A DNA stretch of 64,000 bases. Origin: an uncultured Ruminiclostridium sp. Lineage in GTDB: Bacteria > Bacillota > Clostridia > Oscillospirales > Ruminococcaceae. The notes under the pieces were generated by a model. It had not been told where the DNA came from, made no database searches, and worked only from the letters and a program-made list of their open reading frames with translations. The stretch spans positions 1-64,000 of the forward strand of contig CATLBH010000002.1 of the NCBI GenBank assembly GCA_949878745.1. Direction: 5' to 3'. The translations under genes and the position numbers were made by a program. Positions 10,187-27,872 of the stretch are shown in pieces (within the stretch, counting starts at the first letter, position 1; every line of letters begins with the position of its first letter).

Positions 10187-10253
10187 CCTTTAAAAAATGC
10201 GCTAATACATAAAAGCGGTAAGTATGGCTTACCTATTCGGTTTTATGCACAGC
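10187..10253 (-). terminator. Probable riboswitch expression platform (terminator hairpin)
   Basis: On the minus strand GCTGTGCATAAAA pairs with TTTTATGTATTAGC around an inner GGTAAG/CTTACC stem, followed directly by GCATTTTTT. This is an intrinsic-terminator layout between the THF aptamer and folT, so ligand could promote termination. Confidence 0.6.
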
Positions 10254-10279
10254 GAGATGCGAAAAACGAACCGCAAGAC

Positions 10280-10382
10280 AGCGTTAAAGCGAAGCTTATA
10301 AGCACTCAAACACGCGGTCTTTTCGTCCCGGCGGCAACTCTCCGTCCGCAGGGCACTTGACGCTCGATTTTCTACTCTGTTT
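10280..10382 (-). ncRNA. Tetrahydrofolate (THF) riboswitch upstream of folT
   Basis: The minus-strand leader contains the conserved blocks of the THF aptamer in order: GAGTAGA, then GCGTCAAGTGCC, a GC-rich hairpin ending in GCCGCCGGG, and ACGAA. These match the folate-binding motif known from folT leaders in Clostridia. It lies about 110-210 nt before the folT start. A terminator-like hairpin follows. It presumably lowers folate-transporter synthesis when reduced folates are plentiful. Exact ends were judged by eye. Confidence 0.85.
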
Positions 10383-21910: not shown

Positions 21911-23155
21911 TTATTCCGAAGCATTCAGGTAATCGATTTGTTCCTTTGAAAGCTTGTCTATCTCTATTCCCCAGAATTTCAGCTTACGCTCTGCCACGTC
22001 GTTGTCGATCTCTTTGGGAACATTTATGATCATTTTGTCGAGGCCGTTTCTGTGCTCCGTAAGGTAAAGGGCGGACAAAAGCTGAATCGCAAAGCTCATA
22101 TCCATTATCTCGGCGGGGTGTCCGTCGCCCGCCGCAAGGTTTACGAGCCTTCCTTCCGCGATAACGTTTATCCTTCTGCCGTCCTCAAGGGTATAGCACA
22201 TAATGTTGTTTCTCGCGAGGTGACTCTCCTTTGCGATTTCTCTTAGTCTCGCCACGTCCACCTCTACGTCGAAATGTCCAGCATTGCAGCAAATCGCTCC
22301 GTCCTTCATCACCTTAAAGCTGTCCTCGCAGATAACTCGGTTGCAGCCGGTGACTGTAACAAAGAAATCCCCGACTTTTGCGGCTTCGGTCATTTTCATT
22401 ACCTTAAAGCCGTCCATTACCGCTTCCATTGCCTTTATGGGATCAACCTCGGTAACTATGACGGACGCGCCCAAGCCCTTGGCTCTCATGGCGACGCCCT
22501 TTCCGCACCAGCCGTAGCCCGCCACGACAACATTCTTTCCGGCAACTATAAGGTTGGTGGTACGGTTTATTCCGTCCCACACCGACTGACCCGTACCGTA
22601 GCGGTTATCAAACAAATGCTTGCAGTCCGCGTCGTTTACAAGAACCATAGGAAACTTCAGCTTTCCTGCCTCATTCATGGCCTTTAATCTGTGTATGCCC
22701 GTTGTGGTTTCCTCACATCCACCTATTACGTTTTCTATAAGGTGAGGATATTCGGTGTGAATAAGGTGAACCAGATCGCCGCCGTCGTCTATTATAATAT
22801 TGGGAGCAGCCTTTATTACCTCGGAAATATGACGGTGGTACTCCTCGTCGGTTGCGTTGTACCACGCGAACACATTAAGTCCGTCGTGTACCAACGCGGC
22901 GGCAACATCGTCCTGAGTGGACAGCGGATTGCTTCCGGTAACGTACATTTCCGCGCCGCCCGCGGCAAACACCTTGCACAAATAAGCCGTTTTTGCCTCA
23001 AGGTGTACGGATAAGGCAACCTTAAGCCCTTTAAAAGGTTTTTTTACGGAAAATTCTTCCTCATAGCTTCTGAGAAGCGGCATATTATCTTTTACCCATT
23101 GGATCTTGCGGCAGCCGCTTTCCCAAAGGTTAATATCTCTGATTTCACTTGACAT
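21911..23155 (-). CDS. ahcY: Adenosylhomocysteinase
   Basis: AhcY splits S-adenosylhomocysteine to adenosine and homocysteine with bound NAD, removing a methyltransferase inhibitor. The 414-aa protein has VVAGYGWCGKGVAMRAKGLG for NAD, and the active-site segments NDADCKHLFDNRYGTGQS and CNAGHFDVEVD. ATG 23155 follows AAGGAAGAG; the longer reading from 23215 adds 20 unlikely residues. It stands alone, divergent from the aro operon. Confidence 0.96.
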   Translation of the reverse strand: MSSEIRDINLWESGCRKIQWVKDNMPLLRSYEEEFSVKKPFKGLKVALSVHLEAKTAYLCKVFAAGGAEMYVTGSNPLSTQDDVAAALVHDGLNVFAWYNATDEEYHRHISEVIKAAPNIIIDDGGDLVHLIHTEYPHLIENVIGGCEETTTGIHRLKAMNEAGKLKFPMVLVNDADCKHLFDNRYGTGQSVWDGINRTTNLIVAGKNVVVAGYGWCGKGVAMRAKGLGASVIVTEVDPIKAMEAVMDGFKVMKMTEAAKVGDFFVTVTGCNRVICEDSFKVMKDGAICCNAGHFDVEVDVARLREIAKESHLARNNIMCYTLEDGRRINVIAEGRLVNLAAGDGHPAEIMDMSFAIQLLSALYLTEHRNGLDKMIINVPKEIDNDVAERKLKFWGIEIDKLSKEQIDYLNASE

Positions 23156-23255
23156 TTTATTCTCTTCCTTTCGTCTTATTTGTTTTATTTTACCACAAAT
23201 TGAGAGAAACTTCAAGTATAAACCATATAAATTTAATTCAATTTTAAAAAAACTA

Positions 23256-23284
23256 TTGACAAATCATTTCTATTGCGGTAAAAT
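23256..23284 (+). promoter_or_regulatory. Promoter of the aro operon
   Basis: TTGACA and TAAAAT are separated by exactly 17 nt. Transcription would start near 23291, leaving a leader of about 235 nt before aroF. The leader contains a short peptide gene and a terminator hairpin. Confidence 0.88.
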
Positions 23285-23322
23285 ATAAAAGGAATTTAAA
23301 AAACGCCATTAGCGGAGTAATT

Positions 23323-23427
23323 ATGCTTAACGTATACACAACAGCTTTTATATTTTGGTTTAGCGGCTTGAGCTTTTATTTCGAGTTCAAGTATTTTTTG
23401 CGTACCAAAAATAGAGTTGCGGCGTAA
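23323..23427 (+). CDS. Aromatic-rich leader peptide (34 aa) of the aro operon
   Basis: A 34-codon reading frame starts at ATG behind AGCGGAG, 32 nt after the predicted transcription start. It contains nine Phe, three Tyr and one Trp, clustered as AFIFWF, SFYFEFKYF. It ends in TAA about 32 nt before a terminator hairpin that precedes aroF. This is the layout of amino-acid attenuation, where slow translation of aromatic codons lets transcription enter the aro genes. It is too short to be called by usual gene finders. The alternative antiterminator pairing was not worked out fully. Confidence 0.8.
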   Translation: MLNVYTTAFIFWFSGLSFYFEFKYFLRTKNRVAA

Positions 23428-23458
23428 CGGATCAAACGGCGTTTAAAAGCGCAATTAT

Positions 23459-23490
23459 ATGCCTGCATCTCAATGGTGCGGGCATTTTTT
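23459..23490 (+). terminator. Attenuator-type terminator upstream of aroF
   Basis: ATGCCTGCA pairs with TGCGGGCAT (one G-U) around a 9-nt loop, followed by TTTTT. It lies between the aromatic leader peptide and aroF (start 23527), so it would end transcription early unless read through. Confidence 0.82.
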
Positions 23491-23526
23491 GGTATCAGAT
23501 AAAAACAACGGAAAGGAAGACAAAAA

Positions 23527-24546
23527 ATGATTATTATTTTAAAAAAGGGCGTGCCGAAAACAGAGGTGGATGAGCTTTGCCGAGGAATAGAGGCTCAAAA
23601 CATCAAAATCAACGAGGTGCGGGGCGAGCATACCACCATTTTGGGTCTTATCGGCGACACCCATAAGATCGATACGGAAGCCATCGAAGCACAGGAGATA
23701 GTGGAATCCGTACAGCGCGTTCAGGAGCCGTACAAAGGCGTCAACAGAAAATTCCACCCGGAGGATACCGTCGTTTCGGTGGGAAACACCAAGATCGGAG
23801 ACGGCAACGTGGCGATAATAGCGGGGCCCTGCTCCATCGAAACCGAGGAGCAGATCGTGGACACATGTATGAAGGTCAAGGAAGCGGGAGCGAATCTTTT
23901 AAGAGGGGGCGCTTTTAAGCCCAGAACCTCCCCGTATTCATTTCAGGGTCTTGGCGGAGAGGGCTTAAGGCTGTTTCTAAAGGCAAAAAAAGCTACGGGT
24001 CTTCCCATAGTTACCGAACTTATGTCTTTGGCTCATATCGACCTGTTTTCCGACGTTGACGTAATTCAGGTGGGCGCAAGAAATATGCAGAATTTTGAAA
24101 TGCTGAAGGAACTGGGCAGGTGCAAAAAGCCTATTTTACTTAAAAGGGGGCTGTCCAACACAATTGAAGAGCTTCTTATGTCCGCCGAGTATATTTTTGC
24201 GGGAGGAAACCCGAATATTATTCTCTGCGAAAGAGGGATAAGAACCTTTGAAACCCAGACAAGAAATACCTTGGACATTTCCGCCGTACCCGTTATAAAA
24301 TCCTTAAGCCATCTTCCCGTTGTAATAGACCCCAGCCACGCCACCGGAAAATACGAGTTAGTGGAGCCGATGTCCATGGCAGCCGTGGCGGCAGGCGCGG
24401 ACGGTCTTATTATAGAGGTTCACAACAATCCCCAGAAGGCTCTTTGCGACGGCGCTCAGTCTCTTACGCCCAAGCATTTTGCCGCTTGTGTGAAAAAATG
24501 CGCCTCAATAGCCTCGGTTATGGGTAAAAAGGCAGGTACGATATAA
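23527..24546 (+). CDS. aroF: 3-deoxy-7-phosphoheptulonate (DAHP) synthase
   Basis: This enzyme condenses phosphoenolpyruvate with erythrose 4-phosphate, the first step of the shikimate pathway. The 339-aa protein belongs to the type I-beta group: an N-terminal regulatory ACT-like segment (about residues 1-70) precedes the barrel. Barrel motifs are IIAGPCSIET, RGGAFKPRTSPYSFQGLG and VIDPSHATGK. The extension usually gives feedback control by an aromatic product. Its stop codon overlaps the aroB start by one base. Expression is probably controlled by the leader peptide and terminator upstream. Confidence 0.95.
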   Translation: MIIILKKGVPKTEVDELCRGIEAQNIKINEVRGEHTTILGLIGDTHKIDTEAIEAQEIVESVQRVQEPYKGVNRKFHPEDTVVSVGNTKIGDGNVAIIAGPCSIETEEQIVDTCMKVKEAGANLLRGGAFKPRTSPYSFQGLGGEGLRLFLKAKKATGLPIVTELMSLAHIDLFSDVDVIQVGARNMQNFEMLKELGRCKKPILLKRGLSNTIEELLMSAEYIFAGGNPNIILCERGIRTFETQTRNTLDISAVPVIKSLSHLPVVIDPSHATGKYELVEPMSMAAVAAGADGLIIEVHNNPQKALCDGAQSLTPKHFAACVKKCASIASVMGKKAGTI

Positions 24547-25598
24547 TGATAAAGATAACGGTCAAGGCCTCTTCCGCTTATGATATACTTATAGGAAAAG
24601 GTTTATTGGACAAATGCGGCGAAATAATTTCCGAATTGACAAAGTCAAAAAAATGCGCAGTGGTTACCGATACCACCGTAGACGGTCTTTACGGGAGCAA
24701 GATTCTTGACGCGCTTAAGAAAAGCGGCTTTAACGCCGTTAAATTCGCCGTTCCCGCTGGAGAAGAGTCAAAATCTCACCAACAGCTTATCGGACTGTAT
24801 AATTTTCTTTCGGAAAACGATATAACCAGATCGGATTTTTTAATAGCTTTGGGCGGCGGAGTGGTAGGCGATCTTACGGGCTACTGCGCGGCTACCTATC
24901 TGCGTGGAGTGGACTATGTCCAGGTACCCACCACACTTTTGGCTCAGGTGGACAGCTCTGTGGGCGGAAAAACCGCTGTGAATATTGACGCGGGCAAAAA
25001 CCTCGTCGGATGTTTTAAACAGCCGATTGCAGTAGTAGCCGACACGGATACTCTTTCCACACTCTCCGACGATATTTTTGCCGACGGAATGGGCGAGGTG
25101 GTAAAATACGGTATGATCCGCTCCTCATCGCTTTTTGAAAAGCTGTCCCACGGAAGGACAAAGGAAAATATCGGGGAGATAATCGCCGAATGTGTAGGCA
25201 TAAAAAGCGACGTGGTGGAAAACGACGAGCTTGATACCGGCGAACGTATGATACTTAATTTCGGACACACCTTTGGGCACGCAATAGAAAAGTATATGGG
25301 CTACGGCGTTGTACCTCACGGAAAAGCGGTTGCTATGGGAATGTATATGATAAGCCGTGCCGCCGAAAATCGGAGTTTAACACAAAAAGGCGTTTCGGAA
25401 AAGCTTAAAGCCTGTCTTAAGGCAAATTTCCTCCCGTTTTTCTCTGATATCGACAGGGATAGCCTTTATTCGCTTTCAATCGGAGATAAAAAGCGCACCT
25501 CCGATAAAATAAGAGTAATCGTATGCCCCGAAATAGGGAAAAGCGAAATAGTTACCCTTTCCTTAAACGAATATAAAAACCTTCTGGAGTTAATATGA
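24546..25598 (+). CDS. aroB: 3-dehydroquinate synthase
   Basis: AroB converts DAHP to 3-dehydroquinate with NAD and zinc. The 350-aa product has IALGGGVVGDLTGYCAATYL for NAD and VPTTLLAQVDSSVGGKTAVN with substrate contacts. Metal-binding histidines lie in NFGHTFGHAIE and VPHGKAV. It overlaps aroF by one base and aroA by four (ATGA), so the operon is translationally coupled. Confidence 0.96.
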   Translation: MIKITVKASSAYDILIGKGLLDKCGEIISELTKSKKCAVVTDTTVDGLYGSKILDALKKSGFNAVKFAVPAGEESKSHQQLIGLYNFLSENDITRSDFLIALGGGVVGDLTGYCAATYLRGVDYVQVPTTLLAQVDSSVGGKTAVNIDAGKNLVGCFKQPIAVVADTDTLSTLSDDIFADGMGEVVKYGMIRSSSLFEKLSHGRTKENIGEIIAECVGIKSDVVENDELDTGERMILNFGHTFGHAIEKYMGYGVVPHGKAVAMGMYMISRAAENRSLTQKGVSEKLKACLKANFLPFFSDIDRDSLYSLSIGDKKRTSDKIRVIVCPEIGKSEIVTLSLNEYKNLLELI

Positions 25599-26812
25599 TG
25601 AAAAATATCACGATAACCCCCTCCTATCTTTCGGGAAAAATAGCAATTCCCTCTTCCAAAAGCATTTCCCACCGCGCGCTTATCTGCGCCGCCCTCGCCA
25701 AAGGAAAATCGGAAATAAAAAATCTTTTGGATTGCGCCGATACGAGAGCCACCATTGATATTCTTAAAGCTTTTGGGGCGAAAATATACGCTCGGGACGA
25801 TATTACCCTAGTTGAGGGAATCGAAATCCCGTCAGAAACGGCCGTGGCCGACTGCCGCGAAAGCGGATCCACCTTAAGATTTCTTCTTCCGGTGGCCGCC
25901 GCTTTGGGTTGTGAGACAGAATTTCACGGGAAAGGAAAACTTCCCGAAAGACCGATTACCCCCTACTTTACAGAGCTTACAAAAAATGGTATAATATTTG
26001 AAACAAGGTCAATGCCATACCGTATTTCGGGAAGGCTTAGTTCGGGAGATTACGCTCTCGCGGGAGATATCTCCTCTCAGTTTATTAGCGGGCTTATGTA
26101 CGCGCTTCCGATTCTTCAAGGGGACAGTCGGATTATACTGACTTCTCCCTTACAGTCAAAGCCCTATGTGGATCTTACTATAGCGGAACTTGAAAAATTC
26201 GGCGTAAATGTCACGGAAATTCCTCAGGGATACTTTATAAAAGGCGTTCAAGAATATGTTCCTCAAAAAACGGAGATAGAAGCAGATATGTCGCAGGCGG
26301 CTTTCTTCGCGGTGGCAAATTCGCTGGGCTCTCATATTGAGATTGAGGGGCTTAATCCGGACAGCCTTCAAGGGGACAAGGCCATTCTGGACATTGTTAA
26401 AAGGGCTGACGGAAAGGCTTTTGACGTGAACGCTTCTCAAATTCCCGACCTGGTGCCGATACTTGCCGTTCTCGCTTCCCTTTCAAAAGGCGTTTCCCAT
26501 ATTACGGGGTGTGAAAGACTCAGGATAAAGGAATGCGACCGTCTTTCGGCGATAGCCGAAGAGCTGAACAAGCTGGGAGCGTCGGTTACAGAAAATAAAG
26601 ACAGCCTGACAGTTGAGGGAGTCGATTCCTTAAAAGGCGGAATATGCGATTCCCATAACGATCACCGTATAGCAATGTCGCTGGCGATAGCTGCCGTGCG
26701 CTCAAAGGCAAAGGTCACCATAATCGGCGCCGAATGCATCGCCAAGTCATATCCGCGATTTTTTGAGGATTTCAAATCGTTGGGAGGTATAACAGATGTC
26801 ATCGACAATTAG
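25595..26812 (+). CDS. aroA: 5-enolpyruvylshikimate-3-phosphate synthase
   Basis: AroA joins shikimate 3-phosphate and phosphoenolpyruvate. The 405-aa two-domain protein has IPSSKSISHRALICAALAKG at the N-terminus, DCRESGSTLRFLLPVAAAL in the PEP region, and ECDRLSAIAEELNKLGA and DHRIAMSLAIAA near the end. The PEP loop differs from the LGNAGTAMRPL form of enterobacterial class I enzymes, which can affect inhibitor response; this is inference. ATG at 25595 overlaps the aroB stop; a second ATG follows at once. It overlaps aroC by 17 nt. Confidence 0.95.
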   Translation: MMKNITITPSYLSGKIAIPSSKSISHRALICAALAKGKSEIKNLLDCADTRATIDILKAFGAKIYARDDITLVEGIEIPSETAVADCRESGSTLRFLLPVAAALGCETEFHGKGKLPERPITPYFTELTKNGIIFETRSMPYRISGRLSSGDYALAGDISSQFISGLMYALPILQGDSRIILTSPLQSKPYVDLTIAELEKFGVNVTEIPQGYFIKGVQEYVPQKTEIEADMSQAAFFAVANSLGSHIEIEGLNPDSLQGDKAILDIVKRADGKAFDVNASQIPDLVPILAVLASLSKGVSHITGCERLRIKECDRLSAIAEELNKLGASVTENKDSLTVEGVDSLKGGICDSHNDHRIAMSLAIAAVRSKAKVTIIGAECIAKSYPRFFEDFKSLGGITDVIDN

Positions 26813-27872
26813 TATAGGCGCTCTTTCGGTATCGGTGTTCGGCGAGTCCCACGGAACGGCGATAGGCGCGGTTATAGACAATCTTCCCGCCGGGGAAAAG
26901 CTTGACCTTGAGCGAATATACGGTTTTATGTCCCGCCGCGCCCCGAAAAAGGACGGCACCAGCACCATGCGAAGCGAAACGGATTTTCCCGAAATTATCA
27001 GCGGTTTTTACAACGGAAAAACCACGGGGGAAGCTATTTGCGCCATAATAAAAAACAAGGATCAGCATTCCTCCGATTACAAAAGTATTTACGGAATTGC
27101 AAGACCGGGACACGCCGACTATACGGGCTTTCTAAGATACAACTGCGCCAACGATCCTCGCGGAGGGGGACATTTTTCCGGAAGGCTTACCGCTCCTCTT
27201 GTTTTTATGGGGGCAATCTGCGAACAGCTTCTTGAAGCAAGAGGCGTTACTGCCGCCGCTCATATTTATTCGATAGGTAAAGAAAAGGACCTTCCCTTCG
27301 ATCCCGTAAACGTTTCAAAGGAGCAGTTAAAGGAAGTCAAAACAAAATATCTGCCCGTTATTGACCCCGAAGCCGACGGAAAAATGAGAAACGTCATTGA
27401 CGAGGCGCGAAAAGCGCTTGACTCAGTGGGCGGCGTAATAGAGTGCTGCGCGGTGGGATTTCCCGCAGGTATGGGTTCTCCGATATTCGATGGACTGGAA
27501 AACCGCATTTCACAAATCGTTTTCGGTATTCCCGCAATTAAAGGTATAGAATTCGGAGCGGGCTTCGAAGCCGCCGAAATGAAGGGCAGCGAAAATAACG
27601 ATGAATTTTACACCGAAAACGGAGACATAAGAACCCGAACAAACAACGCGGGCGGAATTTTAGGCGGAATCTCAAACGGAATGCCCCTTATTTTCAGAAC
27701 AGCCGTTAAGCCTACCCCGTCCATTGCCCGCCCCCAGAATACCGTGAATTTTATTACAAAAGAAAATACGATAACGGAAATAAAGGGCAGACACGATCCC
27801 TGCATAGTGCCAAGGGCGGTTCCTTGTGTTGAAGCGGCGCTTAATATAGCTTTGATGTCCTATTTTTTATAA
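26796..27872 (+). CDS. aroC: Chorismate synthase
   Basis: AroC makes chorismate from EPSP using reduced FMN. Signatures are FGESHGTAIGAVIDNLPAG, RPGHADYTGFLRY, NDPRGGGHFSGRLTAPLVF and RTNNAGGILGGISNGMPL. At 358 aa the length is normal. It begins 17 nt before the aroA stop and closes the aroFBAC set; aroD, aroE and aroK are not in the window. Confidence 0.97.
   Translation: MSSTISIGALSVSVFGESHGTAIGAVIDNLPAGEKLDLERIYGFMSRRAPKKDGTSTMRSETDFPEIISGFYNGKTTGEAICAIIKNKDQHSSDYKSIYGIARPGHADYTGFLRYNCANDPRGGGHFSGRLTAPLVFMGAICEQLLEARGVTAAAHIYSIGKEKDLPFDPVNVSKEQLKEVKTKYLPVIDPEADGKMRNVIDEARKALDSVGGVIECCAVGFPAGMGSPIFDGLENRISQIVFGIPAIKGIEFGAGFEAAEMKGSENNDEFYTENGDIRTRTNNAGGILGGISNGMPLIFRTAVKPTPSIARPQNTVNFITKENTITEIKGRHDPCIVPRAVPCVEAALNIALMSYFL

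Follow-up and report, generated by a model that had tools for sequence, protein, structure and literature searches.

A probable ribosome-mediated attenuator with an aromatic leader peptide ahead of the aroFBAC operon of a Ruminiclostridium

Architecture of the aroF leader

We analyzed a 64-kb stretch of DNA from an uncultured Ruminiclostridium sp. (the window), in which the aroFBAC operon lies on the plus strand and the upstream neighbor of its leader is ahcY (adenosylhomocysteinase) on the minus strand. Between ahcY and aroFBAC stand, in this order, a promoter, a 34-codon ORF, its stop codon and an intrinsic terminator, as a preliminary description of this DNA had proposed. With ahcY transcribed in the opposite direction, there is no upstream gene that this terminator could end. 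The hairpins are numbered as in pheL and trpL, which have overlapping 1:2, 2:3 and 3:4 hairpins, with control codons in segment 1 and the stop near segment 2. The features are as follows:

23256..23284, plus strand: promoter of the sigma-A/70 type, TTGACA-17-TAAAAT (11/12 consensus matches)
23314..23317, plus strand: Shine-Dalgarno sequence GGAG of the leader ORF (GGAG in 11/12 genus leaders; GAGG in G043)
23323..23427, plus strand: leader peptide ORF, ATG at 23323, 34 codons plus stop (23425-23427); conserved in 12 genus genomes
23353..23410, plus strand: hairpin inside the ORF (1:2), outer stem 23353-23359 with 23404-23410 and inner stem 23367-23370 with 23388-23391; compensatory changes in G060 and G043
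23414..23471, plus strand: predicted antiterminator (2:3), 23414-23416 and 23418-23426 with 23457-23471; 5' side in the last ORF codons and stop
23459..23490, plus strand: intrinsic terminator (3:4), stem 23459-23469 with 23475-23485, plus T tract
23527..24546, plus strand: aroF, DAHP synthase (ferredoxin-like domain and DAHP_synth_1; Pfam/NCBIfam matches)
24546..25598, plus strand: aroB, 3-dehydroquinate synthase (Pfam/NCBIfam matches)
25595..26812, plus strand: aroA, EPSP synthase (Pfam/NCBIfam matches)
26796..27872, plus strand: aroC, chorismate synthase (Pfam/NCBIfam matches)

The ORF (23323-23427) encodes MLNVYTTAFIFWFSGLSFYFEFKYFLRTKNRVAA, in which we counted 11 aromatic residues (7 F, 3 Y, 1 W) in 34 codons, not the 13 given previously. 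These are spread over codons 5-25, and ten of the 11 fall from F9 to F25. By aromatic clustering, the leader ORF ranked at the top of the 1116 short ORFs in the window; its window score (9/16 residues) was level with that of two other ORFs, and it leads by aromatic fraction. Searches of Pfam and NCBIfam gave no match to the peptide at E 0.001. The leader holds a short, conserved ORF that clusters end-product codons behind a GGAG and an ATG, from which it is presumably translated. The -35 hexamer TTGACA and the 17-nt spacer were found in 12/12 genus leaders, and the -10 hexamer is TAAAAT in 10/12 (TACAAT in G034, TATTAT in G043). Five T lie directly 3' of the terminator hairpin (23459-23485). 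There is also a 12-nt inverted repeat (23280-23291 and 23345-23356), one arm of which overlaps the -10 box. Elsewhere in the window, a THF riboswitch (RF01831) was found at 10248-10381 on the minus strand (76.6 bits vs a cutoff of 36).

Conservation within the genus

A profile search with the peptide across 71 genus genomes gave 12 clear matches (E 3e-12 or better), with all others at 0.03 or worse, and a promoter, an aromatic peptide and a terminator precede aroF in 12/12 of the matching genomes (two with a gene between). Of 60 genus genomes, 10 encode an AroF at ≥80% identity, the source genome among them. The aromatic ORF is directly upstream of aroF in eight of those 10; in G001 and G008 it lies ~1 kb upstream, with another gene between. 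Since this methyltransferase-like gene sits between leader and aroF, the attenuator would control it as well; the G001 gene (L003 676-1467) matches methyltransferase families, and the G008 gene (L002) was judged methyltransferase-like by eye only. The preliminary description had suggested looking for a conserved aromatic peptide in the aroF leaders of relatives, and such a peptide, together with the terminator, is carried by all 10 genomes with AroF at ≥80% identity. It had also named a terminator without an aromatic frame as evidence against its reading. This arrangement was absent from the 10 close genomes and was seen at 2/20 more distant AroF loci (L028 and L030). Across these more distant genus loci (≤64% identity, L011-L030), ORF and terminator were both missing at 17/20, 1 had an ORF by the lax rule only, and 2 had the terminator only; L027-L030 are additional matches from genomes that already contribute to the 20, and the L026 and L030 matches begin inside the gene, their upstream windows being partly coding. 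In G055 (L009 1306-1467), an extra stretch lies between the terminator and aroF with 17-nt perfect inverted repeats (AGAACTTGTTCTCATAG) at its ends, like a small mobile element.

The leader peptides of the genus have a mean column identity of 65% (11 rows aligned), and their FIFWF / FYF core shows little or no variation, with similar cores recurring in other genera. The position of the stop varies (30, 34, 37 or 40 residues). In the ten genomes with both genes, invariant leader residues (Met and Trp excluded) use one codon throughout at 6/8 positions, as compared to identical codons at 16/227 positions for the invariant residues of aroF (Fisher p 8e-6).

Occurrence in other genera

We ran the peptide profile, without aroF, on 396 genomes of the family. 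This yielded 6 matches outside of the genus, of which 4 are directly before a DAHP synthase gene and two (L063 and L066) are not beside aroF. Named AroF relatives were also considered, taking the 80 top-ranking ones out of at least 587; n = 79 excludes L075 (118 nt upstream), and n = 78 excludes L075 and L138. An aromatic-clustered ORF, defined as ≥6 aromatics in 12 residues within 350 nt upstream, was present in 46/79 of these relatives vs 5.4% of 3160 shuffles, 4/79 reverse strands and 1.0% of 770 control windows. This 350-nt scan misses leaders that are farther away or that have long in-frame extensions (e.g., L067). The ORF followed by a terminator was found in 41/78 relatives, compared to 1/780 shuffles and 0/78 reverse strands.

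A broader survey covered 116 regions, consisting of the 79 named relatives, 25/27 family loci from L147-L173 (without L158 and L172), and 8 aroF loci plus 4 leader loci of the genus; in some cases (L009/L067, L069/L155) two regions are the same contig drawn from separate collections. There were 89 regions with an ORF and 79 with an ORF plus terminator. Those with both include Ruminococcus sp. zg-924 (L096), Emergencia sp. 1XD21-10 (L135) and Marasmitruncus massiliensis (L117), which to judge from their record titles seem to be cultured. Phe occurs in 76/76 distinct leaders with a terminator, Tyr in 73 and Trp in 27. The peptide sequences diverge widely across relatives and Phe and Tyr persist, both being present in 73/76 distinct leaders. 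By sequence, the putative attenuator layout is widespread among the Clostridia sampled and recurs ahead of aroF in dozens of relatives. Several loci come from records titled as metagenome bins of Treponema, Lentisphaerae or Thermoguttaceae; these labels may be wrong, and we draw no conclusion about those phyla.

RNA-level conservation of the hairpin and terminator

The leader (23292-23495) folds better than 200/200 shuffles (z -4.4). In an alignment of 12 genus leaders, 96.5% of cells are paired in the in-ORF hairpin and the terminator, and two-sided changes were observed at 8/22 pairs of these two elements (shuffled mean 1.9; 0/500 shuffles reach 8). One of five measures, further pair types, was not above shuffles (212/500) for the hairpin and terminator. 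RNAalifold recovered both elements unaided. The terminator, which covaries, separates the leader ORF from the first structural gene in 12/12 genus leaders. The consensus 1:2 stem reaches into 23411-23416 and so overlaps segment 2, as a protector or pause hairpin would; the in-ORF hairpin is likely a protector and possibly an RNA polymerase pause hairpin. The sharpest case of compensation is G060, where UUUUGG has become UUCCGG and its partner CCAAAA has become CCGGAG. This leaves the stem intact and alters the peptide (Trp to Arg, Lys-Asn to Gly-Asp). As the G060 stem is kept and codon choice agrees, conservation acts at the RNA level and not solely at the peptide level.

The preliminary description had missed this covarying hairpin, as well as the antiterminator (23414-23426 with 23457-23471), and had pointed instead to two other complementary segments as a possible link between leader translation and folding. 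Such segments do exist, at 23298-23307 and 23438-23448, 2 and 6 bases from where they had been placed. As a link to folding the pairing did not hold up: at the corresponding alignment positions, the 11 other leaders do not preserve AAACGCC (23301-23307) with GGCGTTT (23438-23444). The pairing is present in the minimum-energy fold of this genome. We rejected it as a conserved part, with alignment-free pairing better than shuffles in 0/12 leaders, this genome included (p 0.12 to 0.91).

A predicted antiterminator and folding switch

The 5' side of the predicted antiterminator (segment 2) is the 3' end of the ORF, GAGUUGCGGCGUA (23414-23426), and its partner (23457-23471) is the 5' arm of the terminator. 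Its pairing was assessed at 76 of the 79 loci with an ORF plus terminator, after two duplicates and L092 (spacing 80 nt) were dropped. The best pairing had a mean of -12.4 kcal/mol vs -9.5 kcal/mol with shuffled spacers (Wilcoxon p 7e-12, which is optimistic because the loci are related). Considered locus by locus, the energy reached p ≤ 0.05 in 20/76, with a median p of 0.10, and it was not better than shuffled in 7/12 genus members (p 0.26 to 0.64). All 76 partners lie near the stop; this is a consequence of how the segments were cut and has no evidential weight. Within the genus, the antiterminator is retained (77.8% of cells paired vs 30–45% when slid), and its covariation in the genus alignment is not beyond shuffles (score reached by 265/500, cells paired by 284/500).

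We then modeled the switch by folding the RNA 3' of the ribosome up to the terminator loop, with the codon in question in the A site. In this downstream-only model, the antiterminator had a probability of 0.98 with the ribosome at any of the ten aromatic codons from F9 to F25; this fell to 0.33 for K29 and was 0 for R31, A34 and the stop codon. When the RNA was folded with no ribosome, the antiterminator had a probability of 0.04. The modeled switch boundary separates the control codons from the last codons, matching what the mechanism needs, and the modeled antiterminator excludes the terminator and becomes inaccessible when a ribosome occupies the leader stop. Once the full-length RNA is folded, the terminator is dominant in every modeled state (≥0.96). 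Because the terminator wins when the whole RNA is present, the switch must be kinetic, with the antiterminator forming first and holding; such kinetic trapping is what the model would imply. The outcome also depends on the choice of model. For a stall at F20, the antiterminator had a probability of 0.04 in the whole-RNA model, where pairs may span the ribosome, vs 0.98 in the downstream-only model.

Amino acid specificity

We infer both an amino acid response of the leader and its specificity. The leaders contain mostly Phe among their aromatics, then Tyr, and little Trp. The source genome (G000, 99% complete) has a match for prephenate dehydratase. It has no match for the N-domain of anthranilate synthase component I (PF04715), in a search that was positive in 14/14 control genomes. 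As this domain was not matched, the organism may not make Trp and could be a Trp auxotroph, in which case a Phe/Tyr sensor fits. For pheA of the same genome, by our reading the preceding ORF ends ~70 nt before the likely start, so there is no room for such a leader. As the aroF leader of Corynebacterium glutamicum is described as responding to Phe and not to Tyr (PMC11802643), Tyr sensing here is putative.

Proposed mechanism and alternatives

Taken with the genus comparison, the covariation and the enrichment in relatives, all of which support the original proposal of an aromatic leader peptide and attenuator before the aro operon, we consider it highly probable that the leader is a trp-type ribosome-mediated transcription attenuator that reads Phe/Tyr codons to regulate aroFBAC, the common aromatic pathway. 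When tRNA-Phe and tRNA-Tyr are charged, the leading ribosome would reach the leader stop and cover segment 2 (23414-23426); with segment 2 covered, the terminator (23459-23485) would form and transcription would end before aroF. If Phe or Tyr is short, the ribosome would stall on codons 9-25 and open the in-ORF hairpin, leaving segment 2 free. Free segment 2 could then capture the 5' arm of the terminator while the 3' arm is still to be synthesized, allowing transcription of the operon. With no ribosome, the in-ORF structure would hold segment 2 and the terminator would form.

A chance aromatic ORF beside an ordinary terminator is hardly credible as an explanation. While two other short ORFs in the window equal the aromatic window score of this one, ahcY is on the opposite strand, and the layout recurs in 12 genus genomes and in 41/78 named relatives vs 1/780 shuffles. 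It is also very unlikely that the ORF product is a functional small membrane protein, an aromatic, hydrophobic 34-mer co-transcribed with aroF, with the hairpin merely serving as its terminator. The peptide does look hydrophobic and is well conserved within the genus (65% mean column identity over 11 rows), but aromatic richness is kept across relatives whose sequences differ widely, the stops shift (30, 34, 37 or 40 residues), and no Pfam or NCBIfam family matches at E 0.001. The invariant residues retain their codons as well, and G060 replaces W with R while the RNA stem is maintained, neither of which favors selection on a protein.

In TnaC-type systems, the nascent peptide itself stalls the ribosome. 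Applied here, the peptide sequence would arrest the ribosome on a free aromatic metabolite, instead of tRNA charging being read out codon by codon. The FIFWF / FYF core, (near-)invariant in the genus and with similar cores in other genera, could be such an arrest sequence. However, unlike runs occur elsewhere, such as YYYYYFFF (L098) and FYFYGYYFF (L084), which fits codon content and not a fixed arrest motif, and the RNA stem explains the conservation of the core at least partly, making arrest an improbable reading.

Riboswitch and leader-family searches

T-box riboswitches (RF00230) are amino acid supply sensors that are common in Firmicutes and read tRNA directly, and they are the sensors one would expect for aromatic amino acid synthesis in Clostridia. 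No T-box was matched in the 64-kb window, nor in 23150-23600 at E up to 5, and it was set aside as the sensor at aroF. The source genome as a whole has five T-box matches (L174-L178), four of which are over the cutoff and none of which is at aroF; the L177 T-box precedes a gene that resembles, by eye, a serine acetyltransferase. No Rfam family reached its threshold in the leader; of the leader families, only Thr_leader was approached, by the terminator hairpin (18.7 bits vs 55 needed), and a match to rli32 in the leader region (22.1 bits vs a cutoff of 100) was taken as chance. Among 40 relative loci searched with Rfam at the gathering threshold, there was no T-box or leader family at aroF. 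The NiCo riboswitch of L023 sits beyond aroF, and a T-box-like word was matched in L128, which is outside those 40 loci.

Comparison with known systems

Of the two closest known leaders, aroR-aroF of C. glutamicum is reportedly that of Neshat 2014. As described, its leader peptide likewise contains Phe-Tyr-Phe and precedes a DAHP synthase operon (PMC11802643; predicted in PMC4046766), where stalling under Phe limitation enhances transcription (PMC11802643). Compared by description, the aroR host is an Actinobacterium and its peptide has a Phe-Tyr-Phe stretch (PMC11802643), whereas the leader here has 11 aromatics over codons 5-25. The other is uORFC-13-1 of Acholeplasma, a predicted uORF with one or more Phe codons immediately upstream of a terminator and exclusively before aroF (PMC8632094); according to its description, its 24 representatives come from Acholeplasma and unassigned environmental sequences and have at least one Phe residue. 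In E. coli, pheA (pheL) and trp (trpL) are described as attenuators (PMC11802643). The leader here differs from pheL and trpL in its putative target, the common pathway in a clostridial lineage, and in its ten control codons, a mixture of Phe, Tyr and Trp codons lying within codons 9-25. Attenuators with amino-acid-rich leader peptides are also described in Gram-positive bacteria for hisS*/hisZ in bacilli (PMC2965389) and ilv in Staphylococcus aureus (PMC5794164), with other amino acids and genes. Among the matches listed from the open-licence PubMed Central literature, which most subscription papers lie outside of, none described a leader peptide for aroF in Clostridia. The mechanism is known, and the lineage and gene setting are apparently unreported.

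Transcription–translation coupling and pausing

As a mechanism, the attenuator offers a testable regulator for how Clostridia enter aromatic amino acid synthesis. It is relevant more broadly, as transcription and translation are believed to run uncoupled in Firmicutes. B. subtilis RNA polymerase is described as outrunning ribosomes (PMC9226507), and a review reports uncoupling in B. subtilis, predicts it to be common in Firmicutes and describes attenuation by a coupled ribosome as reduced in B. subtilis (PMC10953045), a point against a ribosome-mediated attenuator. With such a leader, which needs the ribosome to keep pace with the polymerase, in dozens of Clostridia, coupling or programmed pausing there becomes directly testable. 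On the pausing side, B. subtilis NusG is described to pause polymerase at TTNTTT (PMC9226507), and at tlrB a pause hairpin and NusG-dependent pausing are said to synchronize polymerase with the ribosome (PMC6851288). We tentatively raise, as a doubtful but possible extension, that aroF in many Clostridia is under true ribosome-sensing attenuation despite uncoupling, with the in-ORF hairpin and a TTNTTT acting as a polymerase pause that awaits the ribosome; one RNA segment would then combine sensor codons, protector hairpin and pause signal. As Phe/Tyr codons make such words likely by chance, the TTNTTT is a lead only, and it starts 2 nt 3' of the inner in-ORF hairpin in 9/12 genus leaders (here 23394-23399).
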